From assembly GCF_025398195.1 (NCBI RefSeq), contig NZ_JAODNV010000018.1, positions 1-64,000 on the forward strand: a DNA stretch of 64,000 nt, written 5' to 3'. Source of the stretch: Chelativorans petroleitrophicus. Its GTDB lineage: Bacteria; Pseudomonadota; Alphaproteobacteria; Rhizobiales; Rhizobiaceae. Positions 15,677 to 28,161 of this stretch are shown here, in pieces. How positions within the stretch are numbered: the first letter of the stretch is position 1; every line of letters begins with the position of its first letter. Made by a program: the position numbers and the translations under genes. The notes under the pieces are model-generated. The model made no database searches and was not told the DNA's origin. It was given only the letters and a program-made list of their open reading frames with translations.

Positions 15677-15706
15677 ATTGACTTTTGTCAATCGTGGCGA
15701 ATAATG
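15677..15706 (+). promoter_or_regulatory. Promoter and candidate operator of the SorC-type regulator
   Basis: TTGACT (15678-15683), a 17-base spacer and ATAATG (15701-15706) make a good sigma-70-type promoter 19 bases before the regulator's ATG. An inverted repeat ATTGAC-TTTT-GTCAAT (15677-15692) covers the -35, which fits autorepression. Its TTTTGTCAA half-site matches the half-site of the larger operator at 22776-22800. Confidence 0.6.
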
Positions 15707-15724
15707 TCTAGCTGGAGGAGACAG

Positions 15725-16708
15725 ATGACACCTCGCCCGGCAGATCAGATCGTGCACAAGGCCGCATGGCTCTATTATACCCACGGGCTGCGCCAGGACG
15801 AGGTGGCGCAGCGGCTCAACATCTCGCGCGCCTCGGTGGCGCTCTATCTTCGCCGGGCGCGGGAGGCCGGAATCGTCAACATCTCCACCTCGACGCACCT
15901 GTTCTGCACCGACATGATGGCGCGGCGGCTGGAGGACGCGCTCGGCCTCGATACGGTCTGGCTGGTGAGCGAAGGCCGGCTCGCGCCTGACCCGGCGGCG
16001 GAAGTACCGGTTCTGGCCGCAAGCGTCTTCCTCGAGATGGTGAAGAACGGCGACCGGGTGGGCGTGGCCTGGGGCCGGACCGTCTATGCCATTGCGGACG
16101 CCATGAGCTATGCTGACCGCCACGGCGTGTCGGTGGTGGAATTGTGCGGCAATCTGGGCTCTCCCTACGCCTACCGGCCCGATCAGTGCACCATGGAGAT
16201 CGCCCGACGGCTGAATGCGCAGGGCCTCAACGTTTATGCGCCGCTGGTGCTGAGCAGCGATGCGCTTGCGCGCGGTTTGCGTGAGGAGCCGGTGATCCGC
16301 GAACAGCTCGACCGTGTCAGCGCCTGCGACATGGCGCTCTTCAGCGTCGGCACGCTGGCCGAGGACAGCCATGTCGTCCGGTGCGGAGCGCTGAGCCCGA
16401 AGGAACTCGCCGCGATCAAGGAAATGGGCGGCGTGGGCGTCATCGCGGGCCAGGTGATCGCCGCCGATGGCACCTGGCTTGATTGCGACTACAACCGCCG
16501 CATCATCTCGGCCGATTTCGATGCCATCCGGGCTATTCCCAGGCGGCTCATGGTGGTGCAGGAGGACGAAAAGCTCGAGCCGCTGCTTGCCGCCATCAAC
16601 GGCCGCTTCTTCACCCACCTGGTCACGACCGCGCGCATCGCGGAACGGCTGCTTGAGCGGCTCAACGCAAAGGCGGACGAAGGCGAGCCAGCCCGCATTT
16701 CCGCCTGA
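15725..16708 (+). CDS. SorC-family sugar-responsive transcriptional regulator
   Basis: A 327-residue SorC/DeoR-type regulator. The N-terminal helix-turn-helix (about 8-52) reads AAWLYYTHGLRQDEVAQRLNISRASVALYLRRA; the remainder is the sugar-phosphate-binding domain with GDRVGVAWGRTVYAIA and VVELCGNLG. Family members bind phosphorylated sugars and usually repress their own transport and catabolic operons until the ligand appears. The ATG at 15725 follows TGGAGGAGA. It is followed 45 bp later by the aldolase-SDR gene on the same strand. Shared half-sites at its own promoter and between the transporter and mtnK suggest that it controls the whole 15.7-25.4 kb locus. The ligand might be a 5-substituted ribose or ribulose phosphate (inference). 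Confidence 0.88.
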   Translation: MTPRPADQIVHKAAWLYYTHGLRQDEVAQRLNISRASVALYLRRAREAGIVNISTSTHLFCTDMMARRLEDALGLDTVWLVSEGRLAPDPAAEVPVLAASVFLEMVKNGDRVGVAWGRTVYAIADAMSYADRHGVSVVELCGNLGSPYAYRPDQCTMEIARRLNAQGLNVYAPLVLSSDALARGLREEPVIREQLDRVSACDMALFSVGTLAEDSHVVRCGALSPKELAAIKEMGGVGVIAGQVIAADGTWLDCDYNRRIISADFDAIRAIPRRLMVVQEDEKLEPLLAAINGRFFTHLVTTARIAERLLERLNAKADEGEPARISA

Positions 16709-16753: not shown

Positions 16754-18808
16754 ATGCAGAATCTCTGGAACGACAGCGAAGCCGAAAAACTCGTCAGCGA
16801 CTATGCCGCCAAGGGCGTATCCCGCGATCTCGCGCTCAGGGTCTACACCACGCGGCTTCTGGGTGGCGAACCGCGGCTTGTGCTGCACGGCGGCGGCAAC
16901 ACCTCGCTGAAGACCAAGGCGAAGGACATTCTCGGCCAGGAATGGGACGTACTCTGCGTCAAGGGCAGCGGCTGGGACATGGCCGTGATCGAGCCGGCCG
17001 GCCTGCCCGCGGTGAAGATGGACGCGCTTCTTGCCGCGCGCAAGCTCGACAGCCTGTCCGACGAGGACATGGTGGCACTGCAGCGGGCGAACCTGATCGA
17101 CCCCTACGCGCCCAACCCGTCCATCGAGACGCTGCTGCACGCCTTCCTGCCGCACAAATATGTCGATCACACCCACTCGACCGCCATCCTGGCGCTGGTG
17201 GACCAGAAGGAAAGCGAGGCGCTCTGCCGCGAGGTCTTCGGCAAGCGGCTGGGCTTCGTGCCCTACATCAAGCCCGGCTTCGACCTCGCCAAGGTGGCGG
17301 CCGACATCTATGACGCCGACCCCTCCGTCCAGGGCCTGATCCTCGACAAGCACGGCATCTTCACCTTCGCCGACGACGCGAAGGAGGCCTACAGCCTCAT
17401 GATCGAGTTCGTGACCATGGCCGAGGAACATGTGGCGAAGCAGGGCAGACAGCCCTTCGTTTCGGTCGCCCTGCCTGCCGCGCTCGCCAAGCCCGCGGAG
17501 ATCAGCCCCTATCTGCGCGGGGCCGTCGCGGTTGACCACGGCGAAGGCCGTTTCGACCGCATGGTCTCCGATTTCCGCACCTCGCCGAAGATCCTCGATT
17601 TTGTGAATGCCGAAACCGTCGAGGAGCTGGCAAAGCGGGGCGTTTCGACGCCGGACCTTTCCATCCGCATCAAGACCGGGCCGATGGTGCTGCCCGCGCC
17701 TGAGGCCGGAAAACTCGACGAGTATGCCGGCATCATCCGCGAGCGCGTGGCGGAATTCGCGAACCGCTACACGGAATACTTCCGCACGAATGACGCGCGC
17801 GACGATGTCAAGCGCACTATGCTCGACCCGATGCCGCGACTCACCCTCGTGCGCGGCCTGGGCCTCTTCGGCCATGGCCGGAGCCTCAAGGAGGCGAAGA
17901 TCGCCGCCGATGTGGGCGAGATGCTGATCGAGGCCGTCACCGGAGCCGAATCCATCGGCTCGTTCCATCCGCTCGCCCTTTCGGACCTCTTCGAGCTCGA
18001 ATACTGGTCGCTGGAGCAGGCGAAGCTCGCCTCGCTGAAGCCCAAACCCCTTTCCGGGCAGGTAATGCTGATCACCGGCGGCGCTGGTGCCATCGGCGCG
18101 GCAACAGCGAAGCTCTTTGCCTCGCAAGGCGCCCATGTGGTCGTCGTGGACCTCGATGCCGCGCAGGCCGAGGCCACGGCGAAGGAAGCCGGCAACAGCT
18201 CCATAGGCGTGGGAGCCGACGTCACCGATCCCGCCCAGGTGCGCGGCGCGTTCGACCGGGCGGTGGCGGTCTATGGCGGCGTCGACATCGTCATCTCCAA
18301 CGCGGGGGCGGCCTGGCAGGGCAGGATCGGGGAGCTGGACGATGCGACGCTGCGCAAAAGCTTCGAGCTCAACTTCTTCGCTCACCAGAGCGTGGCAAGC
18401 AACGCCGTGCGCATCTTCCGCATGCAGCGGACTGGCGGCGTGCTTCTCTTCAACACGTCGAAGCAGGCCGTCAACCCGGGCAAGAACTTCGGCGCCTACG
18501 GCCTGCCGAAGGCTGCCACGCTGTTCCTCTGCCGGCAGTATGCTCTTGACTATGGTTCCGAGGGCATCCGCTCCAACGCGGTGAACGCCGACCGCATCCG
18601 CTCCGGACTCCTCACCGACGAGATGATCGCGAGCCGGGCCAAGGCCCGCGGTGTTTCCGAGAAGGAATACATGAGCGGCAACCTGCTTGGCCTCGAGGTC
18701 CGCGCGGAGGATGTGGCGCAGGCGTTCCTCCACCAGGCGCTCGCCGAGCGCACCACGGCCAATGTCACCACGGTGGACGGCGGCAACATCGAGGCGGCGC
18801 TCAGGTAG
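16754..18808 (+). CDS. Bifunctional class II aldolase / short-chain dehydrogenase (RhaD-like fusion)
   Basis: A 684-residue fusion. The N-terminal class II aldolase domain has HGGGNTS at 45-51, Glu125 (SIETLLHA), the zinc ligands His139 and His141 (DHTHST) and His200 (LDKHG), so a metal-dependent aldolase giving DHAP is expected. The C-terminal short-chain dehydrogenase has TGGAGAIG at 441-448, NAG at 519-521, Ser569 and Tyr582-Lys586. Such fusions are often annotated as rhamnulose-1-phosphate aldolase/lactaldehyde dehydrogenase. Here no rhamnose kinase or isomerase is present; instead mtnK and mtnA share the locus, so the substrate may be 5-methylthioribulose-1-phosphate or 5-deoxyribulose-1-phosphate, with the dehydrogenase processing the released aldehyde. 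The domain calls are firm, the substrate is inferred. Confidence 0.9.
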   Translation: MQNLWNDSEAEKLVSDYAAKGVSRDLALRVYTTRLLGGEPRLVLHGGGNTSLKTKAKDILGQEWDVLCVKGSGWDMAVIEPAGLPAVKMDALLAARKLDSLSDEDMVALQRANLIDPYAPNPSIETLLHAFLPHKYVDHTHSTAILALVDQKESEALCREVFGKRLGFVPYIKPGFDLAKVAADIYDADPSVQGLILDKHGIFTFADDAKEAYSLMIEFVTMAEEHVAKQGRQPFVSVALPAALAKPAEISPYLRGAVAVDHGEGRFDRMVSDFRTSPKILDFVNAETVEELAKRGVSTPDLSIRIKTGPMVLPAPEAGKLDEYAGIIRERVAEFANRYTEYFRTNDARDDVKRTMLDPMPRLTLVRGLGLFGHGRSLKEAKIAADVGEMLIEAVTGAESIGSFHPLALSDLFELEYWSLEQAKLASLKPKPLSGQVMLITGGAGAIGAATAKLFASQGAHVVVVDLDAAQAEATAKEAGNSSIGVGADVTDPAQVRGAFDRAVAVYGGVDIVISNAGAAWQGRIGELDDATLRKSFELNFFAHQSVASNAVRIFRMQRTGGVLLFNTSKQAVNPGKNFGAYGLPKAATLFLCRQYALDYGSEGIRSNAVNADRIRSGLLTDEMIASRAKARGVSEKEYMSGNLLGLEVRAEDVAQAFLHQALAERTTANVTTVDGGNIEAALR

Positions 18809-19072: not shown

Positions 19073-20134
19073 TCAGTCCCGCGGGGGCAGCGGCATCCAC
19101 GCCGGCACGGCGACGTCGGCATGGGCGAACTGCGGCAGCTTCTGCGCGAGCTCGTCCATGTTCTTGATGTCCTGGTCGTTGAGGTCTTTCTGCGTGATCA
19201 GCGTGGGCGGAACGATGACGTTGTGGCCCGGGTCCTCGCCCGCAAGCAGCATGGCGAGCGCGCGCACCGAAACTTCGCCCACCACGGCGGGGTTGGTCGC
19301 GGCCGTGGCGGCCCAGGCGCTGCCCGGCTCGCGCATGGCGGCAATGTCCGCCGTCGAAATGTCGGCCGAGTAGATCTTGATGCTGCTCGAAAGACCCGCC
19401 TCGTCCACGGCGATCTTCACGCCCTTGGCGAACTCGTCATAAGGAGCGAAGACGACCTGAATGTCCGGATTGGCCGAAAGGACCGAACGGGCCTGGTTGG
19501 CGACGGAGTTCGCGATCGGATTGTCGAGCGTGCCGAACTGCGCGACCTCGTTGATCCCCGGATATTTCTCCTTGAACTCGACCCAGGTTTCGTTGCGCCG
19601 GTCTAGCGGAGCGATGCCGGGCACATAGACATAAGCCGCGGTCCACTCCTCCCCGTTATCCTTTATGGCCTGCTCAAGCGCCAAGCGCGCAAGGTCGCGG
19701 TCGGACTGTTCGATCTGCGGGATGGCGTCGTTCTCCACGTTCACGTCAAAGGCCACGACCTTGATGCCGGCATCCACCGCGCGCTGCGCCGCCTCCTTCA
19801 TGGACTCGGTCAGCCCGTGCTGGATGATGATACCGTCCACGCCGAGCGCGATAGCCTGATCCACCATATCGGCCTGGAGGGCGGCATCCTGCCGGCTGTC
19901 GAAGACTCTGAGATTGACGCCCAGTGCCTTCGCCTGCGCCTCCACGCCCGAAAGATAGGCCTGGAAGAAATCGCCGGTCGAGAGATAGCGCACAAGTGCG
20001 ATCTCGACCTCGCCCGGATTGTCGAAAGGCGCGGGCATATCCTGCGCAGACGCGGATACCGGCGCGAGCATGCTCGCCCCAAGAAGGGCAAGCCCCAGCC
20101 TGCCCAGGCCCCGACGTGTGAAAGTCATGCTCAT
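19073..20134 (-). CDS. Ribose-type sugar ABC transporter substrate-binding protein
   Basis: A 353-residue periplasmic binding protein of the RbsB group (peripla_BP_4 fold). The signal has a TRRGLGRLGLALLGA stretch, so either Sec or Tat export is possible, with cleavage after ASA. Typical RbsB blocks are VEAQAKALGVNLRVFDSRQDAALQ, QAIALGVDGIIIQHG and VVAFDVNVEND. The ATG at 20134 lies eight bases after GGGAGG. Last gene of a three-gene unit (ATPase, permease, binding protein), with a terminator behind it. Neighbouring mtnK and mtnA suggest that the ligand is methylthioribose or 5-deoxyribose rather than ribose; this is inferred from context. Confidence 0.9.
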   Translation of the reverse strand: MSMTFTRRGLGRLGLALLGASMLAPVSASAQDMPAPFDNPGEVEIALVRYLSTGDFFQAYLSGVEAQAKALGVNLRVFDSRQDAALQADMVDQAIALGVDGIIIQHGLTESMKEAAQRAVDAGIKVVAFDVNVENDAIPQIEQSDRDLARLALEQAIKDNGEEWTAAYVYVPGIAPLDRRNETWVEFKEKYPGINEVAQFGTLDNPIANSVANQARSVLSANPDIQVVFAPYDEFAKGVKIAVDEAGLSSSIKIYSADISTADIAAMREPGSAWAATAATNPAVVGEVSVRALAMLLAGEDPGHNVIVPPTLITQKDLNDQDIKNMDELAQKLPQFAHADVAVPAWMPLPPRD

Positions 20135-20154
20135 TCCTGCTACCTCCCAATGGT

Positions 20155-21216
20155 CTAACGGCCGTTGCGGCCGAGCAACGAAAATGTGAAGACGAGCGCG
20201 ATGACGAGCACCGCTCCCTTTATGAAGTCCTGCGTGTAGTAGGGCACGTTCATCATCGTGAGGCCCTGGAGCAGCACGCCGACGAATAGCGCACCGACCG
20301 CCGTGCCGAAAGCATTGGGCTTCGCCGCACCCAGCACCGCAAAGCCAATCAGTGCTGCCGCCACCGCATCCAGCAGAAGATTATTTCCCGAGGCGATGTC
20401 GCCGCGCCCGAGCCGCGCTGCCAGCAATATGCCCCCGATGGAGGCAAAGACGCCGGAAATCACATAGGCCCAGATCTTGTAGGCCTTGACCGGCGCGCCC
20501 GCGAACTCCGCCGCGCGCGGATTGGAGCCCACCGCATACATCATGCGGCCGAAGCGCGTGTATTCGAGGAAGAACCAGATCACCACCGCAAGCACGATGA
20601 GCACCACCACCGAAGACGGCACGAGATCCGGTATGATGACGTCGAAGCGGTGGCGGCCGAGCGCGAGAAAAGCGGGGCTGAAGGTGCCCTCGGCGGTCGA
20701 ACCGTCCGGCAAAGTCATCCCGGCGGCGATCGAGCGGCCCTCCGTGGGAATGCGCTGCAGGCCGATCAGAAGGAACATCATGCCGAGCGTGGCAAGCAGG
20801 TCCGGCACGCGCATGTAGCAGATGATGAGACCATTGATGAGCCCGACCAGCGCCCCGATGGCAAGGCATATGAGCACCGCGACCAGCGCGTTCTGCTCCA
20901 TCACTACCATGGCATAGGCCGCCGCCATCATGGCGCTGGTGGCGATCGAGCCGATGGAAAGATCGAACCCGCCGACGACCAGTGTGGCCGTCACCCCCAG
21001 AGCGAGAATGCCGGTGATCGACACAGACTGGAGAATGAAGACTGCCGCCTGAGGCGAGGCAAAGCCGCGCGTGGCGAGCGAGAAGAAGACGATGAGCCCC
21101 GCCAGCAGTAGGAGAAAGCCGTAGCGGATGACGATCTCGCGCGGCGAAAGACCCGCGCGGGCCGCCTCCCGCCCTTCGAGGCTTGCCGGCGGTTCCTGCG
21201 CCATCCCGCTATCCAT
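20155..21216 (-). CDS. Ribose-type sugar ABC transporter permease
   Basis: A 353-residue RbsC-like permease. Multiple hydrophobic segments and the family blocks ILALGVTATLVVGGFDLSIGSIA, GLINGLIICYMRVPDLLATLG and the C-terminal VGALFVGVLLQGLTMM are present. The cytoplasmic N-terminus (MDSGMAQEPPASLEGREAAR) is polar. The gene starts inside the last eight bases of the ATPase gene and its stop lies 20 bp before the binding-protein start, so the three parts are co-transcribed. Confidence 0.92.
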   Translation of the reverse strand: MDSGMAQEPPASLEGREAARAGLSPREIVIRYGFLLLLAGLIVFFSLATRGFASPQAAVFILQSVSITGILALGVTATLVVGGFDLSIGSIATSAMMAAAYAMVVMEQNALVAVLICLAIGALVGLINGLIICYMRVPDLLATLGMMFLLIGLQRIPTEGRSIAAGMTLPDGSTAEGTFSPAFLALGRHRFDVIIPDLVPSSVVVLIVLAVVIWFFLEYTRFGRMMYAVGSNPRAAEFAGAPVKAYKIWAYVISGVFASIGGILLAARLGRGDIASGNNLLLDAVAAALIGFAVLGAAKPNAFGTAVGALFVGVLLQGLTMMNVPYYTQDFIKGAVLVIALVFTFSLLGRNGR

Positions 21217-22738
21217 GTGCCGGCACCTCCGAAAGCGTCGGCCGCCCTGCCCCGGCCACTTCGGCGAGCAGCCGGTCCATGTCGATCTGCGCGTTTCGAT
21301 GCTCTCCCACGATCGTATGTTCCGACATCACGAGTATCCGGTCTGCCGTCTCCAGTGCTTCATCAAGTTCAGTGAGGAAAATCAAAGTGGCGCGGTCGGC
21401 AGCGCTTTCGCGCAGCTTCGCCGCTATGTCGTGCCGGGCGGCGATGTCCACACCCTGGAAGGGCTCATCGAGGATCAGCATGCGTGAGGGTTGCGACAGC
21501 CAGCGCGCCACCATCACCTTCTGCTGGTTGCCGCCCGAGAGCGTGGCAAGATCGTCCCGCTCCGACCGGCAGACGATGCGCAGGCTGCCGATCTGCTCCT
21601 TCGCGGCCGCCCGTTCGGCACGCCTGTTGATGAGGCTGAGCGGCGAAAAGCGGGGCAGAAAGGGCAGGCTCATGTTCTGGTAGATGTTGAAGTCCGGCAC
21701 TATGCCGGTGCGCGCCCGGTCCTTCGCCACCAGGAAGACGCCCTGACGGATGGCGTCGGCCGGATTTCGCGGTGTATAGGGGCTGCCGGCCAGCTCCATG
21801 GTGCCCGCAACCGGGCGGTGGATGCCGAAAAGCATTTCAGCAAGGCGCGTCTTGCCGACGCCGACCAGGCCGGTGACCGCCACGACCTCGCCTGCGCCGA
21901 GCGTGAGGGAGAACGGCCGAGCCCCCGGAACGAGCTGCAGACCCTCAGCCCGGAAGATGGGGTGCGTTGCCGCCTGCGAGACAACGCTGCCCTGGCGCAG
22001 CGTGCGCCCGAGCATGGCGTTGACGGCGCCCTCGTAGTCGAGCGGCCTGCTCTCGAACAGACCCACGATCTGCCCGTCCCTAAGGCTCACGATCCGATCC
22101 GCGAGCCGCCTGATGTCCGACATGCGGTGGGAAATGTAGAGGATGGCAACGCCGCGGGCGCGCAGCCGGTCTATCAGCTCGAACAGCCGTGCCGCCTCAT
22201 GCGCCGAAAGGGACGACGTGGGCTCGTCGAGAATCATCACCTTGGGTTCGTGGGCCATGGCGCGCGCGATGGCCACCATCTGCCTGTCAGCCAGCGGCAG
22301 TTCCGTGACATCCGCCGTCAGGTCGAGGTCGAGGCCCATGCGCCCCGCCACCTCGAGCGCCGTGCGGCGTACCCGGCGCGGGTTGAAGAATATGCTGGCG
22401 CCCTTCCCGCTCAGCCGGTCGAGCACGAGATTGGTGGCCACGTCGAGCGAGCCAACCACGCCGTCATCGATGTTCTGATGAACCGTCACCACGCCCGCGC
22501 GCATGGCCTCGGCGGGGGTCGCCGGGGCAAAGGGGCGTTCGCCCAGCGTCATCTCGCCGGAATCGGCCTGATAGACGCCGCTCATGATCTTCACGAGGGT
22601 GGATTTGCCCGCGCCGTTCGCTCCCAGCAGCGCGGTCACCTCGCCCGCCCGCAGCTCCAGCGAGATGCCGCGCAGCACCTCGTTGCTGCTGAACGATTTT
22701 GCAAGACCGGCAATACGAAAGACGGGACTTTCCGCCAT
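21209..22738 (-). CDS. Ribose-type sugar ABC transporter ATP-binding protein (double domain)
   Basis: A 509-residue RbsA-like protein with two ATPase domains. Domain 1 has Walker A GANGAGKST and Walker B VMILDEPTSSL. Its signature region reads ELPLADRQMVAIARA, without the usual LSGG, as is common for the first half of RbsA proteins. Domain 2 has a variant Walker A, GLVGVGKT, the signature LSGGNQQK and Walker B MLILDEPFQGVD. The ATG at 22738 follows GGGGAGGA; a longer frame to 22891 would cross the promoter region. First gene of the transporter unit, divergent from mtnK. Confidence 0.93.
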   Translation of the reverse strand: MAESPVFRIAGLAKSFSSNEVLRGISLELRAGEVTALLGANGAGKSTLVKIMSGVYQADSGEMTLGERPFAPATPAEAMRAGVVTVHQNIDDGVVGSLDVATNLVLDRLSGKGASIFFNPRRVRRTALEVAGRMGLDLDLTADVTELPLADRQMVAIARAMAHEPKVMILDEPTSSLSAHEAARLFELIDRLRARGVAILYISHRMSDIRRLADRIVSLRDGQIVGLFESRPLDYEGAVNAMLGRTLRQGSVVSQAATHPIFRAEGLQLVPGARPFSLTLGAGEVVAVTGLVGVGKTRLAEMLFGIHRPVAGTMELAGSPYTPRNPADAIRQGVFLVAKDRARTGIVPDFNIYQNMSLPFLPRFSPLSLINRRAERAAAKEQIGSLRIVCRSERDDLATLSGGNQQKVMVARWLSQPSRMLILDEPFQGVDIAARHDIAAKLRESAADRATLIFLTELDEALETADRILVMSEHTIVGEHRNAQIDMDRLLAEVAGAGRPTLSEVPAHG

Positions 22739-22757
22739 GGCTGTCCTCCCCGGGGAG

Positions 22758-22818
22758 ACGCTAACACCCTTCCGGCATTTGTCAACATCATTGACAAATG
22801 ACAGAGCGTTGGTAGCGT
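22758..22818. promoter_or_regulatory. Symmetric operator with two divergent promoters (transporter / mtnK)
   Basis: A perfect 10-bp inverted repeat, CATTTGTCAA (22776-22785) and TTGACAAATG (22791-22800), is separated by CATCA. Each arm contains a TTGACA -35. Rightwards, TTGACA (22791-22796), 16 bases, TAGCGT (22813-22818) points at mtnK. Leftwards on the minus strand, TTGACA (22785-22780), 16 bases, TAGCGT (22763-22758) points at the ATPase gene. A protein bound to the repeat would block both. The nearby SorC-type regulator is the natural candidate because its own promoter carries the same half-site. Confidence 0.72.
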
Positions 22819-22880
22819 GATCTCCAATGCTGGCGCGTCCGGAAAAGGACAGCGGCGGATGCCCCGCAAAGGCAAGAGCA

Positions 22881-22910
22881 GCACCCGGCACGGGCGAACA
22901 TACCGGGTGC
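22881..22910 (+). other. Hairpin in the long mtnK leader
   Basis: GCACCCGG (22881-22888) and CCGGGTGC (22903-22910) form an 8-bp stem with a 14-base loop, in a leader of roughly 160 bases between the predicted promoter and the mtnK start. It does not match the SAM-II or SAM-I riboswitch patterns I know. A regulatory role is possible but unsupported. Confidence 0.3.
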
Positions 22911-22987
22911 GCGCGTGCCCTGCCGGGAGGCCTCGCCGCGCAAGATATGTCAGGTCAGCAAGGAAGGATGCCGGGAGGAAAAAGGAC

Positions 22988-24253
22988 ATGCACGAGACCG
23001 CCTTCAAGCCGCTCACCGTGGAAACGCTCCCCGCGCGCCTGGGTCCGATAGCCGCGGTGGCGGAACGCGTGGGAGGCAGCCCCTCGGCCTGGAAGGTGCG
23101 GGAGGTGGGTGACGGCAACCTCAATCTCGTTTTTATCGTGGAGGGGGAGAAGGGCGCTGTGGTGGTCAAGCAGGCCCTGCCCTATGTGCGGCTGGTGGGC
23201 GAAAGCTGGCCGCTGCCGCTGAAACGCTCCTTCTTCGAGTATCACGCCCTTGTCCGGCAGGAAAAGCGCGCGCCCGGCCTCGTGCCCGCGATTTACCACT
23301 TTGACGAAGGGCAGGCGCTCACAGTGATGGAATATCTTTCGCCCCACATCATCCTGCGCCGGGCGCTGATCCAGGGCTGGCAGCTTCCGAGGATCGCGGA
23401 GGATCTCGGCCTGTTCATGGCCCGCACGCTTTTCCGCGGCTCCGACCTCTCTATGGAGGCGCGGGAGCGCAAGCAGGACCTCGCGCTCTTTGCCGACAAT
23501 GTCGAGCTTTGCGACATCACGGAAAACCTCGTCTTCACCGATCCCTATTTCGCGGCGGAGATGAACCGGCACACGCCGGAGCTCGATCCGCTGGTGAAGG
23601 AGCTGCGCGCGGACCGCGACCTCAAGGTCGAGGCACAGAAGCTCAAGCACCTGTTCGCAGCCAAGGCGGAGACGCTGGTGCACGGCGACCTGCATACAGG
23701 CTCCGTGATGGTGACGGAGTCTGACACGCGCGTCATCGACCCGGAATTTGCCTTCTACGGCCCCATCTCCTTCGATGTGGGCATGCTGCTTGCCAATTAC
23801 TGGATGGCCTTCTTCTCGCAAAAAGGCCACGAGGCGCAGGGTTCACGCGAGGAAATGCGCGCCTATCTGTTGAAGGTGATTGAGGAGACCTGGACGGTCT
23901 TCCGCGAGGAGTTCTCCAGGCTCTGGCGCACCGAGCGGACAGGCATGCTCTATCATCGCAGCCTCTATGAGGATCAGGGCGACCATCTGGGCGCCGAGCA
24001 GGCCCTCAACCACGTCCTGCACGACATCTGGACGGAGATGCTGGGCTTTGCCGGGGTGGAAATCCACAGGCGCATTCTGGGCCTTGCCCATAATGCGGAC
24101 TTTGAGATCATCGACGACACCGGGTTGCGGGCGGCATGCGAGGCGCCGGCCCTGACGTTCGGGCGGCACATCGCCGTTAACCGAGAGCGCATCACCTCGT
24201 TCGGCGAGCTTCACGCGCTGGCCCGGATGCTCGATTCAGAAAACAGGAGGTAA
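22988..24253 (+). CDS. mtnK: S-methyl-5-thioribose kinase (MtnK)
   Basis: A 421-residue kinase of the aminoglycoside-phosphotransferase-like fold that phosphorylates S-methyl-5-thioribose at C1. The nucleotide-binding region contains VREVGDGNLNLVFIV (about 38-52), the catalytic loop is HGDLHTGSV (232-240) and the metal-binding DPEFAFYGP starts at 251, all hallmarks of MtnK. The ATG at 22988 follows GGAGGAAAAAGG; the same frame is open upstream to 22817, but that stretch is a basic, unfamiliar 57 residues overlapping the promoter. mtnA begins three bases after its stop. No MTA phosphorylase or nucleosidase gene lies nearby, so the substrate may arrive through the adjacent transporter. Confidence 0.93.
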   Translation: MHETAFKPLTVETLPARLGPIAAVAERVGGSPSAWKVREVGDGNLNLVFIVEGEKGAVVVKQALPYVRLVGESWPLPLKRSFFEYHALVRQEKRAPGLVPAIYHFDEGQALTVMEYLSPHIILRRALIQGWQLPRIAEDLGLFMARTLFRGSDLSMEARERKQDLALFADNVELCDITENLVFTDPYFAAEMNRHTPELDPLVKELRADRDLKVEAQKLKHLFAAKAETLVHGDLHTGSVMVTESDTRVIDPEFAFYGPISFDVGMLLANYWMAFFSQKGHEAQGSREEMRAYLLKVIEETWTVFREEFSRLWRTERTGMLYHRSLYEDQGDHLGAEQALNHVLHDIWTEMLGFAGVEIHRRILGLAHNADFEIIDDTGLRAACEAPALTFGRHIAVNRERITSFGELHALARMLDSENRR

Positions 24254-24256
24254 GCC

Positions 24257-25360
24257 ATGAAGGTCGGGACCAGGCACTACCGCACGATCTGGCTCAACGA
24301 GGACGGCTGGTCGGTGGACCTTATCGACCAGCGCTGGCTGCCCCATGAATTCCGCATCGAGAACGTGCGTACGGTGGAAGGCATCGCCACTGCGATCCGC
24401 GACATGTGGGTGCGCGGGGCGCCGCTCATCGGCGTGACGGCGGCCTATGGCGTCGCCATCCGCATGCGCGAGGACCCCTCGGACGCGGCGCTCGACGACG
24501 TGTGGGAGAGGCTGCATGCCACGCGTCCCACGGCCATCAACCTCCGCTGGGCGCTGGACGAGATGCGCAACCGCCTGCGGCCCCTTCCCGAGAAGGAGCG
24601 CGCCGCCGCCGCCTACAGGCTAGCGGCCGAGATCGCGGACGAGGACGTGGAGCTCAACCGGGCCATCGGCAGGCATGGACTCGAGATCATCAGGCAGATC
24701 GCGGCGCGGAAGAAGCCGGGCGAGCCTGTCAACATCCTTACCCACTGCAATGCTGGCTGGCTCGCCACGGTGGACTACGGCACAGCCACCGCGCCCATCT
24801 ACCTGGCGATGGAGGAAAACATTCCCGTCCATGTCTACGTGGACGAGACGCGCCCGCGCAACCAGGGGGCGCATCTCACCTCCTGGGAGATGGCCGGGCA
24901 CGGCGTGCCGCACACGCTGATCGTTGACAATGCCGGCGGGCACCTGATGCAGCACGGCATGGTGGACATGGTGATCGTGGGCACGGACCGGACGACTGCC
25001 ACGGGAGACGTGTGCAACAAGATCGGCACCTATCTCAAGGCTCTGGCGGCGCGCGACAACGGCGTGCCCTTCTATGTTGCCCTGCCCTCGCCCACCATCG
25101 ACTGGACGGTACGCGACGGCGTGAAGGAAATCCCCATCGAGGAGCGCTCGGCGGACGAGGTGTCCTATGTCTGGGGACGGACGGCCGACGGGAAGGTCAC
25201 GCAGGTCCGCATCTTGCCCGATGCCACGCCTGCGGCAAACCCGGCCTTCGACGTTACCCCGGCCCGGCTCGTCACCGGCCTCATTACCGAGCGGGGCATC
25301 GCGGAAGCGTCCGAAGACGGGCTTCTGAAGCTGTTCCCGGAGCGGGCGAAGGCGGCTTAG
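24257..25360 (+). CDS. mtnA: S-methyl-5-thioribose-1-phosphate isomerase (MtnA)
   Basis: A 367-residue isomerase of the eIF2B-like family that turns methylthioribose-1-phosphate into methylthioribulose-1-phosphate. The catalytic Cys164 ([12 protein letters not shown]) and Asp244 ([10 protein letters not shown]) match Cys160 and Asp240 of the Bacillus enzyme with a constant offset, and [12 protein letters not shown] follows as usual. The ATG at 24257 is preceded by AACAGGAGGTAAG inside the end of mtnK. MtnB, MtnW, MtnX and MtnD of the methionine salvage pathway are absent from the window, so its product may go to the class II aldolase encoded in the same locus. Confidence 0.95.
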
Positions 25361-25517
25361 GTATTCGCAGAGAAGAGAAAGGCCTGCGCCCCAGGCTGTG
25401 CCTGTTCCGCCTTGCGCGTTTCCGCGTAGACGTGCTGGCCTCATCCGGCAGCCGAGGAGAGGCTATCAGGGACGTGTGCTGGCTGGCTGCCTTGGCTTCC
25501 GGCAGTGAGAGGCGTGG

Positions 25518-27050
25518 CTACATCACCGCGCCGATCTGCCAGGGCACGAATTCGTTGTCGCCATAGCCGAGCAGTTCGGACTTGGTGCGCTTGCCGGAGG
25601 CCACGGCGAGGATTTCCTCGAAGATCTGGCGGCCCTTTTCCTGCAGCGGCACCCCGTCGAGGATATCGCCGCAGTTGATGTCCATGTCCTCCTCCATGCG
25701 CTGATACATGGGGGTGTTGGTGGCAAGCTTGATCGAAGGCGTGGGCTTGCAGCCATAGGCCGAACCCCGGCCGGTCGTGAAGCAGATGACATTGCAGCCG
25801 CCCGCCACCTGGCCGGTCGCCGAAACCGGGTCGTAACCCGGCGTATCCATGAACACGAAGCCCTTCTCGGTGATGAGCTCGGCATATTCATAGACCGCCA
25901 TGAGCGGCGTGGAGCCGCCCTTGGCCGCCGCGCCCAGCGACTTCTCGAGAATTGTCGTAAGCCCGCCCGCCTTGTTGCCGGGCGAGGGATTGTTGTTCAT
26001 CTCGCCCCTGTGCCGGGCGGTGTATTCCTCCCACCAGCGGATGCGCTCGACCAGCTTCTCGCCGACCTCGCGGGAAATGGCCCTGCGGGTCAGAAGATGT
26101 TCGGCGCCATAGATTTCCGGCGTTTCGGCCAGCACCGCCGTGCCTCCGTTCTGCACCAGAATGTCAGCGGCCACGCCGAGCGCCGGATTGGCGGTGATGC
26201 CCGAATAGCCATCGGAGCCGCCGCATTGCAGCGCCAGCTTGATTTCGGAGGCGGGCACCGTCTCGCGCTTAGCGGCGGCCACCGCACCCAGCATCTCCTT
26301 CAGGCGCTCAAGCCCCGCTTCGATGGTGCGCCGCGTGCCGCCCGTTTCCTGAATGGTCATGGTGCGGAACGTGTCGCTCTCCTCGATGCCATAGAGCTCC
26401 TTGAAGCGAGCGATCTGAAAGACCTCGCAGCCGAGCCCCACCACGAGCACGCCGCCGAGATTGGGATTGGCCGCATAGCCCCACTGGGTCCGCTTCAGAA
26501 GATCGAAGCCTTCGCCCGAAGCAGCCATGCCGCAGCCCGTGCCATGGGTGAAGGCGACCACGCCGTCGATTTCGGGATAGTCATCGAGCAGACCGGAGCG
26601 GTTGGCGGCCTCGGCGATGAAGCGGGCGACGGAGGCCGAGCAGTTCACGCTCGTCAGGATACCGATATAGTTGCGCGTGCCCACCTTGCCGTTCGCGCGG
26701 CGGTAGCCCTGAAAGGTTGCCTGCTCCTCGGGCGGCAGCACGTTCACGGGCCGCGCCTCCTCGCAAAAGCGGTAATCCCGCTCGAAGTCGTGCATTTCGA
26801 TATTGTGCTCGTGCACCCACTCGCCGGGCATGATGGGCGTCTTGGCAAAGCCGATGATCTGGCCGAACTTCCGCACCGCTTCGCCAGGCGCGATCGCAGC
26901 AAGCGCGACCTTGTGGCCAAACGGGATGCGCGCGACGGCCCGCACGCCCCCGGGAAGTTCGGTGTCCTTTTCGATGGCGCGCGCCGCTACGGCGATATTG
27001 TCCTCGTCGGAGAGGCGGAGAAAGGGCGGACGTTGGCTGAGGTCGTTCAT
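25518..27050 (-). CDS. UxaA-family sugar-acid dehydratase (altronate dehydratase-like)
   Basis: A 510-residue protein with an N-terminal SAF domain (about 10-85) and the UxaA core: KVGTRNYIGILTSVNCSAS, FTHGTGCGMAASGEG, LALQCGGSDGYSGITANPALG and TTGRGSAYGCKPTPSIKLATN. These are iron-dependent sugar-acid dehydratases; characterised members act on altronate or galactarate. Its neighbours here are a fucose-type mutarotase and an aldose 1-dehydrogenase, so a 6-deoxy or C4-epimeric aldonate such as L-fuconate may be the substrate (inference). It is convergent with mtnA across a 157-bp gap and sits 169 bp downstream of a ribokinase remnant on the same strand. Confidence 0.88.
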   Translation of the reverse strand: MNDLSQRPPFLRLSDEDNIAVAARAIEKDTELPGGVRAVARIPFGHKVALAAIAPGEAVRKFGQIIGFAKTPIMPGEWVHEHNIEMHDFERDYRFCEEARPVNVLPPEEQATFQGYRRANGKVGTRNYIGILTSVNCSASVARFIAEAANRSGLLDDYPEIDGVVAFTHGTGCGMAASGEGFDLLKRTQWGYAANPNLGGVLVVGLGCEVFQIARFKELYGIEESDTFRTMTIQETGGTRRTIEAGLERLKEMLGAVAAAKRETVPASEIKLALQCGGSDGYSGITANPALGVAADILVQNGGTAVLAETPEIYGAEHLLTRRAISREVGEKLVERIRWWEEYTARHRGEMNNNPSPGNKAGGLTTILEKSLGAAAKGGSTPLMAVYEYAELITEKGFVFMDTPGYDPVSATGQVAGGCNVICFTTGRGSAYGCKPTPSIKLATNTPMYQRMEEDMDINCGDILDGVPLQEKGRQIFEEILAVASGKRTKSELLGYGDNEFVPWQIGAVM

Positions 27051-27633: not shown

Positions 27634-28086
27634 CTATTCCGCCTCGGGCGGAATGACGCCTTTCTTGAGCACGAAACAGCCGTAGAAGCGGCACTCGCCC
27701 GTCTGCACCACGCAGAAGGACTTTTTGGCGAGATCGTAGAAGGCAAAACGCTCGATGGAACCCATGGGCCAGGAGCGCCCCTCGGCCCTGTCGATCTCCG
27801 CCTGCACCTCAGCCTGAACCGCGGGGATTTCGTCCGGCTTGCCCACCACTTCCATGCGCATCGCGGGATGCTCCACGAAAGAGTCGAGCGGCATGACGGA
27901 AAGGATGGCGCGCACGACCCGCGGCGCGCTTGCGTCGATGCGCAGGAGACGCCCGAGCACCGTCTGGCGCGCGACAGACTCGGCCGGGAAATTGGTGTCG
28001 CAAACGATGAGATCGTCGCCATGGCCCATGGAGCGCAGGGCGTAGAGAACATCAGCGTTGAGAATGGGATCGATCCCCTTGAGCAT
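27634..28086 (-). CDS. fucU: RbsD/FucU-family sugar mutarotase
   Basis: A 150-residue protein of the FucU type. It opens MLKGIDPILNADVLYALRSMGHGDDLIVCDTNFP, including the conserved catalytic His region, and ends with FYDLAKKSFCVVQTGECRFYGCFVLKKGV, as in L-fucose mutarotases. It interconverts the anomers of a sugar so that the next enzyme gets the right form. The ATG at 28086 follows GGAGGAAAG. It lies between the aldose dehydrogenase upstream and the ribokinase scar downstream on the same strand, probably in one transcript. The sugar is likely L-fucose or a related aldose. Confidence 0.88.
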   Translation of the reverse strand: MLKGIDPILNADVLYALRSMGHGDDLIVCDTNFPAESVARQTVLGRLLRIDASAPRVVRAILSVMPLDSFVEHPAMRMEVVGKPDEIPAVQAEVQAEIDRAEGRSWPMGSIERFAFYDLAKKSFCVVQTGECRFYGCFVLKKGVIPPEAE

Positions 28087-28161
28087 GCTTTCCTCCCTCT
28101 TCCGGCCGGCGCGGCGCAGCCTTCGTATCGACCACACAGAGGCTTTGAGCGCAAGCGGCCC

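Follow-up and report, generated by a model that had tools for sequence, protein, structure and literature searches.

The closest described system is the mtnK-mtnA-ald2 operon of E. coli, which was reported in 2025, on the basis of deletion and complementation, to be repressed by YjhU (MtnR) (PMC12632272). That report terms MtnR a DeoR-family protein, states that the sequence it recognises is unknown, draws attention to a semi-palindrome across the –10 element, and records efeU as up in the mtnR deletion strain (PMC12632272). Elsewhere, mtn genes are described as genome-specific targets of MetJ (PMC4239095). SorC proteins are described as tetramers that sit on two half-operators: those of B. 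subtilis DeoR carry TTGA at their outer ends, the left half being ATTGAACAAAATTTCAAT, and those of CggR repeat every 20 bp, as counted from the printed operator (PMC11229326).

The mtn gene cluster and an inverted repeat between its divergent operons

The window (the whole 64-kb stretch of DNA analysed here) encodes MtnK, MtnA, and a class II aldolase together, which matches the gene set of the DHAP shunt (Table 1). Despite the presence of mtnK and mtnA, we found no match to acireductone dioxygenase (PF03079) in the genome, which is 99.97% complete. Oxygen-dependent methionine salvage is therefore unlikely, and this gene content favours disposal of the DHAP-shunt type, in which the aldolase/SDR would suit the cleavage step and then the handling of the aldehyde. 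The substrate-binding protein had no NCBIfam equivalog match above cut-off, and the imported sugar may be 5-methylthioribose, 5-deoxyribose, or another 5-deoxypentose.

Related loci differ in their neighbouring genes. Following mtnK-mtnA in Shinella (L144:10353-13410) and Mariluticola (L146:10353-13409) are genes for two transketolase-like subunits and a RuBisCO-like protein, which suggest a fate of methylthioribulose phosphate other than aldol cleavage. A fucose-mutarotase-like gene adjoins the substrate-binding gene in the divergent loci L095, L096, and L104 (39–42% identical), and its homologue in the window lies at 27637-28137, about 2.3 kb past mtnA. Near 4.6 kb in the Mesorhizobium intechi locus (L090) there are two neighbouring matches to the substrate-binding gene, 81 and 82% identical.

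Table 1. Genes and predicted regulatory elements of the cluster, with window coordinates and the basis of each assignment
Feature	Coordinates	Strand	Basis
Predicted half-operator TTGACTTTTGTCAA, inferred –35 of the sorC-aldolase operon	15678..15691	+	kept in relatives; predicted autoregulation
Possible weak second half-operator GCGAATAATGTCTA	15697..15710	+	19 bp from the first, overlaps the –10; suggestive only
SorC-family (PF04198) regulator, MtnR-like, proposed repressor	15725..16708	+	domain search, structure relative, tree
Bifunctional class II aldolase/short-chain dehydrogenase (SDR)	16754..18808	+	NF006192, 1114.5 bits, cut-off 639
Sugar ABC transporter substrate-binding protein	19073..20134	–	PF13407
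Sugar ABC transporter permease	20155..21216	–	PF02653
Sugar ABC transporter ATP-binding protein, heads the left operon	21209..22738	–	profile searches
TAGCGT, inferred –10 of the transporter operon	22758..22763	–	TAGCGT at spacing 16–17 in 39/46 loci
Predicted left half-operator TTGACAAATGCCGG	22772..22785	–	sequence, arm profile, conservation; holds the inferred transporter –35 (TTGACA)
Spacer CATCA, 5 bp	22786..22790	.	arm-to-arm distance 5 bp in 43/46 loci (window included), 6 bp in 3
Predicted right half-operator TTGACAAATGACAG	22791..22804	+	sequence, arm profile, conservation; holds the inferred mtnK –35 (TTGACA)
TAGCGT, inferred –10 of mtnK-mtnA	22813..22818	+	TAGCTT/TAGCGT/TAGTTT/TAGCCT at spacing 16–17 in 39/46 loci
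mtnK, S-methyl-5-thioribose kinase	22988..24253	+	TIGR01767, 505.7 bits, cut-off 275
mtnA, S-methyl-5-thioribose-1-phosphate isomerase	24257..25360	+	TIGR00512, 428.3 bits, cut-off 279

The intergenic region between the sugar ABC-transporter operon on one side and mtnK-mtnA on the other (22739-22987, 249 bp) contains an inverted repeat that we read directly from the sequence, with left arm CATTTGTCAA (22776-22785) and right arm TTGACAAATG (22791-22800). Both 10-bp arms are perfect. Each holds a TTGACA hexamer, at 22791-22796 on the plus strand and at 22785-22780 on the minus strand, and on either strand exactly 16 bp separate this hexamer from TAGCGT; in these particulars the original prediction was right. 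A repeat search additionally returned longer arms of 28 nt (22758-22785 and 22791-22818) that are 79% complementary. The distance from the operator core to the mtnK start in the window (22801-22987; 191 bp) is the longest of 46 loci (56–191 bp), and the relative L021 has 207 bp between the two.

Because the 64-kb window holds nine distinct repeats of at least 10 bp with loops up to 20, the one at 22776-22800 included, repeat length alone is unremarkable, and we dropped it as evidence. Among 2000 dinucleotide shuffles of the 249-bp region, 10 produced a perfect 10-bp repeat with a loop no longer than 20; the region itself contains no other perfect repeat of at least 10 bp with a loop of that size. 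A mirrored pair of TTGACA hexamers, each followed at the same distance by an identical hexamer, occurs once in the window; its two –35 elements count as one coincidence because the palindrome forces the second. Across the 3.96-Mb genome, TTTGTCAA-N5-TTGACAAA was found at one place with up to two mismatches (reversed control, 0), and the core with one mismatch at seven other places (reversed control, one place). It is conservation, rather than arm length, that settles the non-randomness of the repeat.

To define conservation, we collected 50 GTDB loci with MtnK as the query and scored as core TGTCAA-N5/6-TTGACA with at most one mismatch, no more than 400 bp upstream of mtnK. The core was present in 45 of these loci, which range from Rhizobiaceae/Phyllobacteriaceae to Rhodobacterales; with the window added, there are 46 operator loci, and the exact N5 core has no further occurrence in the 51 sequences scanned. 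Within the DNA covered, no divergent transporter ATPase was seen beside mtnK in the five core-less loci (L065, L092, L094, L099, and L102), although the mtnK contig of L065, from a Nitratireductor genome, has only 148 bp upstream. The same association was observed in the genomes of relatives (30 loci of 33 mtnK matches, from genomes that partly overlap with the GTDB set): the core was present at 24/24 mtnK loci with a divergent transporter ATPase and at 0/6 without one. A motif search of the relatives gave matches in 27 of 101 genomes at up to two mismatches, many of them single, chance-looking matches away from mtnK. Within the genus, all ten genomes with an mtnK match, our own counted, carry the repeat upstream of mtnK. 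Loss of the repeat in close relatives had been named beforehand as an outcome that would count against the prediction; with 10/10 genomes in the genus and 45/50 GTDB loci, the repeat is kept. One of the core-less loci, L099, has a lone TTGACTCTTGTC upstream of mtnK, as expected if one half-operator serves one promoter.

The exact mirror geometry, which the original prediction had taken as meaningful, did not hold up. The left TAGCGT was found in 39/46 loci, at a spacing of 17 bp in 36 and 16 bp in 3, and the right hexamer was TAGCTT in 27 of the 46, TAGCGT in 9, TAGTTT in 2, and TAGCCT in 1 (spacings of 15–19 were examined with TAG preferred, which favours TAG-type matches). Hexamer and spacing are identical on both sides in 5/46 loci, the window among them, and we rejected the mirror as a functional feature. 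Hexamers are absent on both sides in the seven most divergent loci (L095-L097, L100, L101, L103, and L104). As promoters, both sites combine a perfect TTGACA with a TAGCGT that matches TATAAT at 3/6 positions, and a scan for consensus sigma-70 promoters over 20000-26000 of the window found none. We also considered TAGCGT as the usual –10 of this genome, which proved unsupported: TTGAC-N17/18-TAGCGT occurs three times, two of these being the divergent mtn pair, versus five times in the reversed control, and thus is no usual promoter form here. An RNA stem-loop was rejected by reasoning, as the repeat lies upstream of both inferred transcript starts, which we predict near 22750-22752 (minus strand) and 22824-22826 (plus strand).

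The linked SorC regulator and the motif at its promoter

The regulator carries a C-terminal sugar-binding domain (PF04198, E 4.7e-51) and, toward its N terminus, matches HTH-type profiles at 12-51, of which a single one passes its cut-off. Its best solved relative is DeoR (8r7y, E 3.2e-27), with a full-length alignment to residues 6-314.

We constructed an arm profile of 14 columns from 32 distinct mtn arms, with no other sites included, and used it to scan each locus. Outside the mtn arms, the top match lay upstream of sorC in 33 of 42 loci, which are mostly Mesorhizobium and not independent; in the window, which is among the 33, this site ranks first in 64 kb. One of the 33, the rank-1 match at the sorC start codon of L100, is probably due to chance. 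The sorC site ranked second in six loci (L076, L080, L087, L089, L095, and L105), and the profile had no sorC-upstream match in L101, L103, and L104, where sorC follows mtnA. The 42 tested loci exclude L079 and L108, in which sorC is cut at the edge, and L081 and L097, in which it lies outside the locus. In the Mesorhizobium loci L080, L087, and L089, a further strong arm-like match, TTGACAAGTGACGA, scores above the sorC site.

We then turned to five held-out plasmid records, one per genus, that had not contributed to the profile. In all four that contain sorC (Sinorhizobium meliloti 1021, Shinella, Mariluticola, and Ensifer), the top three places were the sorC promoter and the pair of mtn arms (4/4), and pSymB of S. 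meliloti 1021 has the same arrangement as the window, around 1643117-1643149 (L143 8901-8933). In the fifth record, from Halomonas, mtnK has no divergent transporter next to it, and neither a sorC match nor the operator was found. A count of the pattern TTGACWWWTGNCR gave five matches in the 3.96-Mb genome, three of them at mtn/sorC promoters, with two in the reversed control; the profile test is the cleaner of the two because this pattern was designed after the sites had been seen. In Mesorhizobium camelthorni (L081), the contig that has mtnK also has the sorC-aldolase genes, at a distance of about 150 kb, and their promoter carries TTGACTTTTGTCAG; L081 is the one locus behind the statement that the motif is found at a sorC gene distant from mtnK. 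From these sequence matches, we infer that the regulon has a third unit beyond the transporter and mtnKA, namely the sorC-aldolase/SDR operon.

The proposed operator and competing readings

Taking together the observed sequence of the repeat, its conservation, its link to the divergent transporter, the motif shared with the sorC promoter, and the regulator's family and position in the tree, we conclude that the repeat is very probably the operator through which the MtnR-like SorC repressor governs the transporter, mtnK-mtnA, and sorC-aldolase/SDR operons. The original prediction of a single repressor for transporter and kinase is thus sustained as regards the conserved shared site, the sorC-promoter motif, and the co-occurrence; the lone dimer palindrome it implied is the less likely part.

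In the mechanism that we propose, a SorC tetramer would, without inducer, occupy the two 14-bp half-operators (22772-22785 and 22791-22804), whose centres are 19 bp apart and each of which would start with the –35 hexamer of one promoter. With both –35 regions beneath a single complex, transcription of the transporter operon and of mtnK-mtnA would be blocked together, and the same 14-bp element at the –35 of the sorC-aldolase/SDR operon would close a loop of autoregulation. As inducer we propose a phosphorylated intermediate that MtnK or MtnA would form from 5-methylthioribose or 5-deoxyribose after import; uptake, phosphorylation, isomerisation, and aldol cleavage would then turn on together. 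We regard this choice of inducer and substrate as reasonably probable.

The mtn arms read TTGACAWWTGNC, with the outer half weaker. In the inner part, TTGACAWWTG, the fixed positions are kept in 44–50 of 50 distinct arms (T9 in 44 and G10 in 49), while farther out C12 is kept in 29/50 and G10 with C12 in 28/50. A near invariant inner part and a weak outer part, together with the observation that both arms change alike in some lineages, would suit one dimer bound to one 25-bp palindrome, CATTTGTCAA-N5-TTGACAAATG, as a single operator. Against this, the sorC promoter has an arm without the inner mtn palindrome: its site is TTGAC-N4-GTCAA or close to it, and is itself quasi-palindromic. The outer TTGA of DeoR and the binding of SorC tetramers to two half-operators likewise speak against a single palindrome, as does the 20-bp spacing of CggR, counted from print (PMC11229326), set beside arm centres that are 19 bp (N5) or 20 bp (N6) apart in 46/46 mtn loci. 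At the sorC promoter, 37/42 loci have the first site, and 36 of them (18 of 24 distinct sequences) show a further GTC exactly 19 bp beyond it; this second copy overlaps the –10, and its conservation may therefore have another cause. In Ensifer, a second copy begins 19 bp upstream. We consider the single palindrome rather unlikely and, on balance, favour from this analysis two facing half-operators in tetramer geometry, each holding the –35 of one promoter, because of the SorC tetramer precedent, the form of the sorC site, and the 19- or 20-bp distance between centres. As the outer half of the arm is weak, this preference over the single palindrome falls short of proof.

As the mode of action of the SorC protein, we strongly favour repression. 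The –10 elements are poor, as at promoters that need help, and some SorC-family proteins have been reported as activators. That the SorC protein here activates, or both activates and represses, is nevertheless improbable: a site over the –35 suits repression, and for E. coli MtnR, which groups with this regulator, deletion and complementation showed repression (PMC12632272).

Slightly less probable still is that a regulator other than the linked SorC protein binds the repeat. Such a regulator could account for an operator core that stays the same in divergent operator-bearing loci, whose SorC proteins are only 34–38% identical to that of the window, and for the six of 24 relatives with operator and transporter (G099, G019, G081, G027, G034, and G042) in which we found no SorC match at E 1e-60. 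However, the motif is also present at the sorC promoter, even when this is 150 kb away, and the five congeners without a SorC match at E 1e-60 are also without the operator. Moreover, each of the 45 operator loci could be paired with a SorC homologue, within the locus in 43 cases (two of them cut at the edge) and elsewhere in the genome, beside an aldolase gene, in the remaining two (L081 and L097). The congener G015 has the regulator, no mtnK match, and only a two-mismatch core match away from mtn/sorC genes. Finally, although TTGACA is the canonical –35 and the arms have promoter-like spacing to a second hexamer that is conserved in 39/46 loci, it is highly improbable that the arms are merely two well-kept –35 elements and no operator, since their conservation extends to T9 and G10, beyond any –35, and their distance of 5 or 6 bp in 46/46 loci is one that promoters do not need.

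Relation to E. coli MtnR and other described systems

YjhU carries the SorC domain (PF04198) by Pfam. A tree of 30 regulators places it among those of mtn clusters, in a group of 22 rows (support 99/99), apart from eight other SorC paralogues; the YjhU branch is long, the sample is limited, the paralogues come from the same genomes, and the group includes L129, L130, and L131, where 4 kb of sequence showed no mtn gene. A scan of the 739 bp ahead of E. coli mtnK for TTGACAAATGACAA gave TTGTCACATGACAA (12/14) as the top match, located 37–50 bp before the start codon. Its score was equalled in 2/300 shuffles, it is the only match of at least 12 in 64 kb of E. coli DNA, and it falls within the 126-bp segment that is described as still MtnR-repressed (PMC12632272). 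We predict from this match that TTGTCACATGACAA is an MtnR site in E. coli. A look-alike 21 bp further upstream scores 10/14, and this partner site is uncertain because two more places also score 10. As for motif sites that might serve autoregulation or efeU, the vicinity of yjhU and efeU has no match of at least 11/14.

We put forward, as an evenly balanced proposition, that TTGAC-WNWT-GNC is a long-kept recognition element of an MtnR subfamily in alpha- and gammaproteobacteria, represented in E. coli by TTGTCACATGACAA and a partner 21 bp away, and in alphaproteobacteria by half-operators split between two promoters. If this is true, E. coli MtnR reads TTGTCACATGACAA rather than the published semi-palindrome alone, and in alphaproteobacteria a single complex turns both import and catabolism on or off. 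Local repressors with operators that overlap divergent promoters are already known; what this analysis adds is the predicted recognition motif, a third unit in the proposed regulon, and the connection with MtnR. A literature search, whose coverage left out most subscription papers, found no prior description of the operator. The motif provides a concrete candidate for the DNA sequence recognised by an MtnR-type repressor, the very point left as unknown in 2025 (PMC12632272), and shared regulation would tie a sugar ABC transporter without an equivalog to the catabolism of 5-methylthioribose or 5-deoxyribose.

Clusters for the disposal of 5-deoxyribose and methylthioribose resemble ours in encoding a kinase, an isomerase, and a class II aldolase, and some also contain sugar transporter genes (PMC6079011); they differ in that neither a regulator nor SorC is mentioned in the main text of that paper. 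E. coli is like the window in having a SorC-family regulator (PF04198 in both, 31% identity, same tree group) beside mtnK, mtnA, and a class II aldolase gene, and a motif match upstream of mtnK. Unlike the window, it has one operon with a GRP-family transporter gene and no divergent ABC transporter, and its mtnR lies downstream in the opposing direction, with CRP control also described (PMC12632272). In the window, by contrast, the site is common to two promoters, and aldolase and SDR form one fused protein. With B. subtilis DeoR and CggR, our system shares the predicted use of two half-operators per full operator, with a spacing of 20 bp for CggR versus 19–20 bp here, and the DeoR half-operator ATTGAACAAAATTTCAAT resembles ATTGACTTTTGTCAAT at the sorC promoter. 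Whereas the DeoR and CggR operators, as described, each serve one operon (PMC11229326), the predicted half-operators of the window stand head to head and would hold the –35 elements of different operons.
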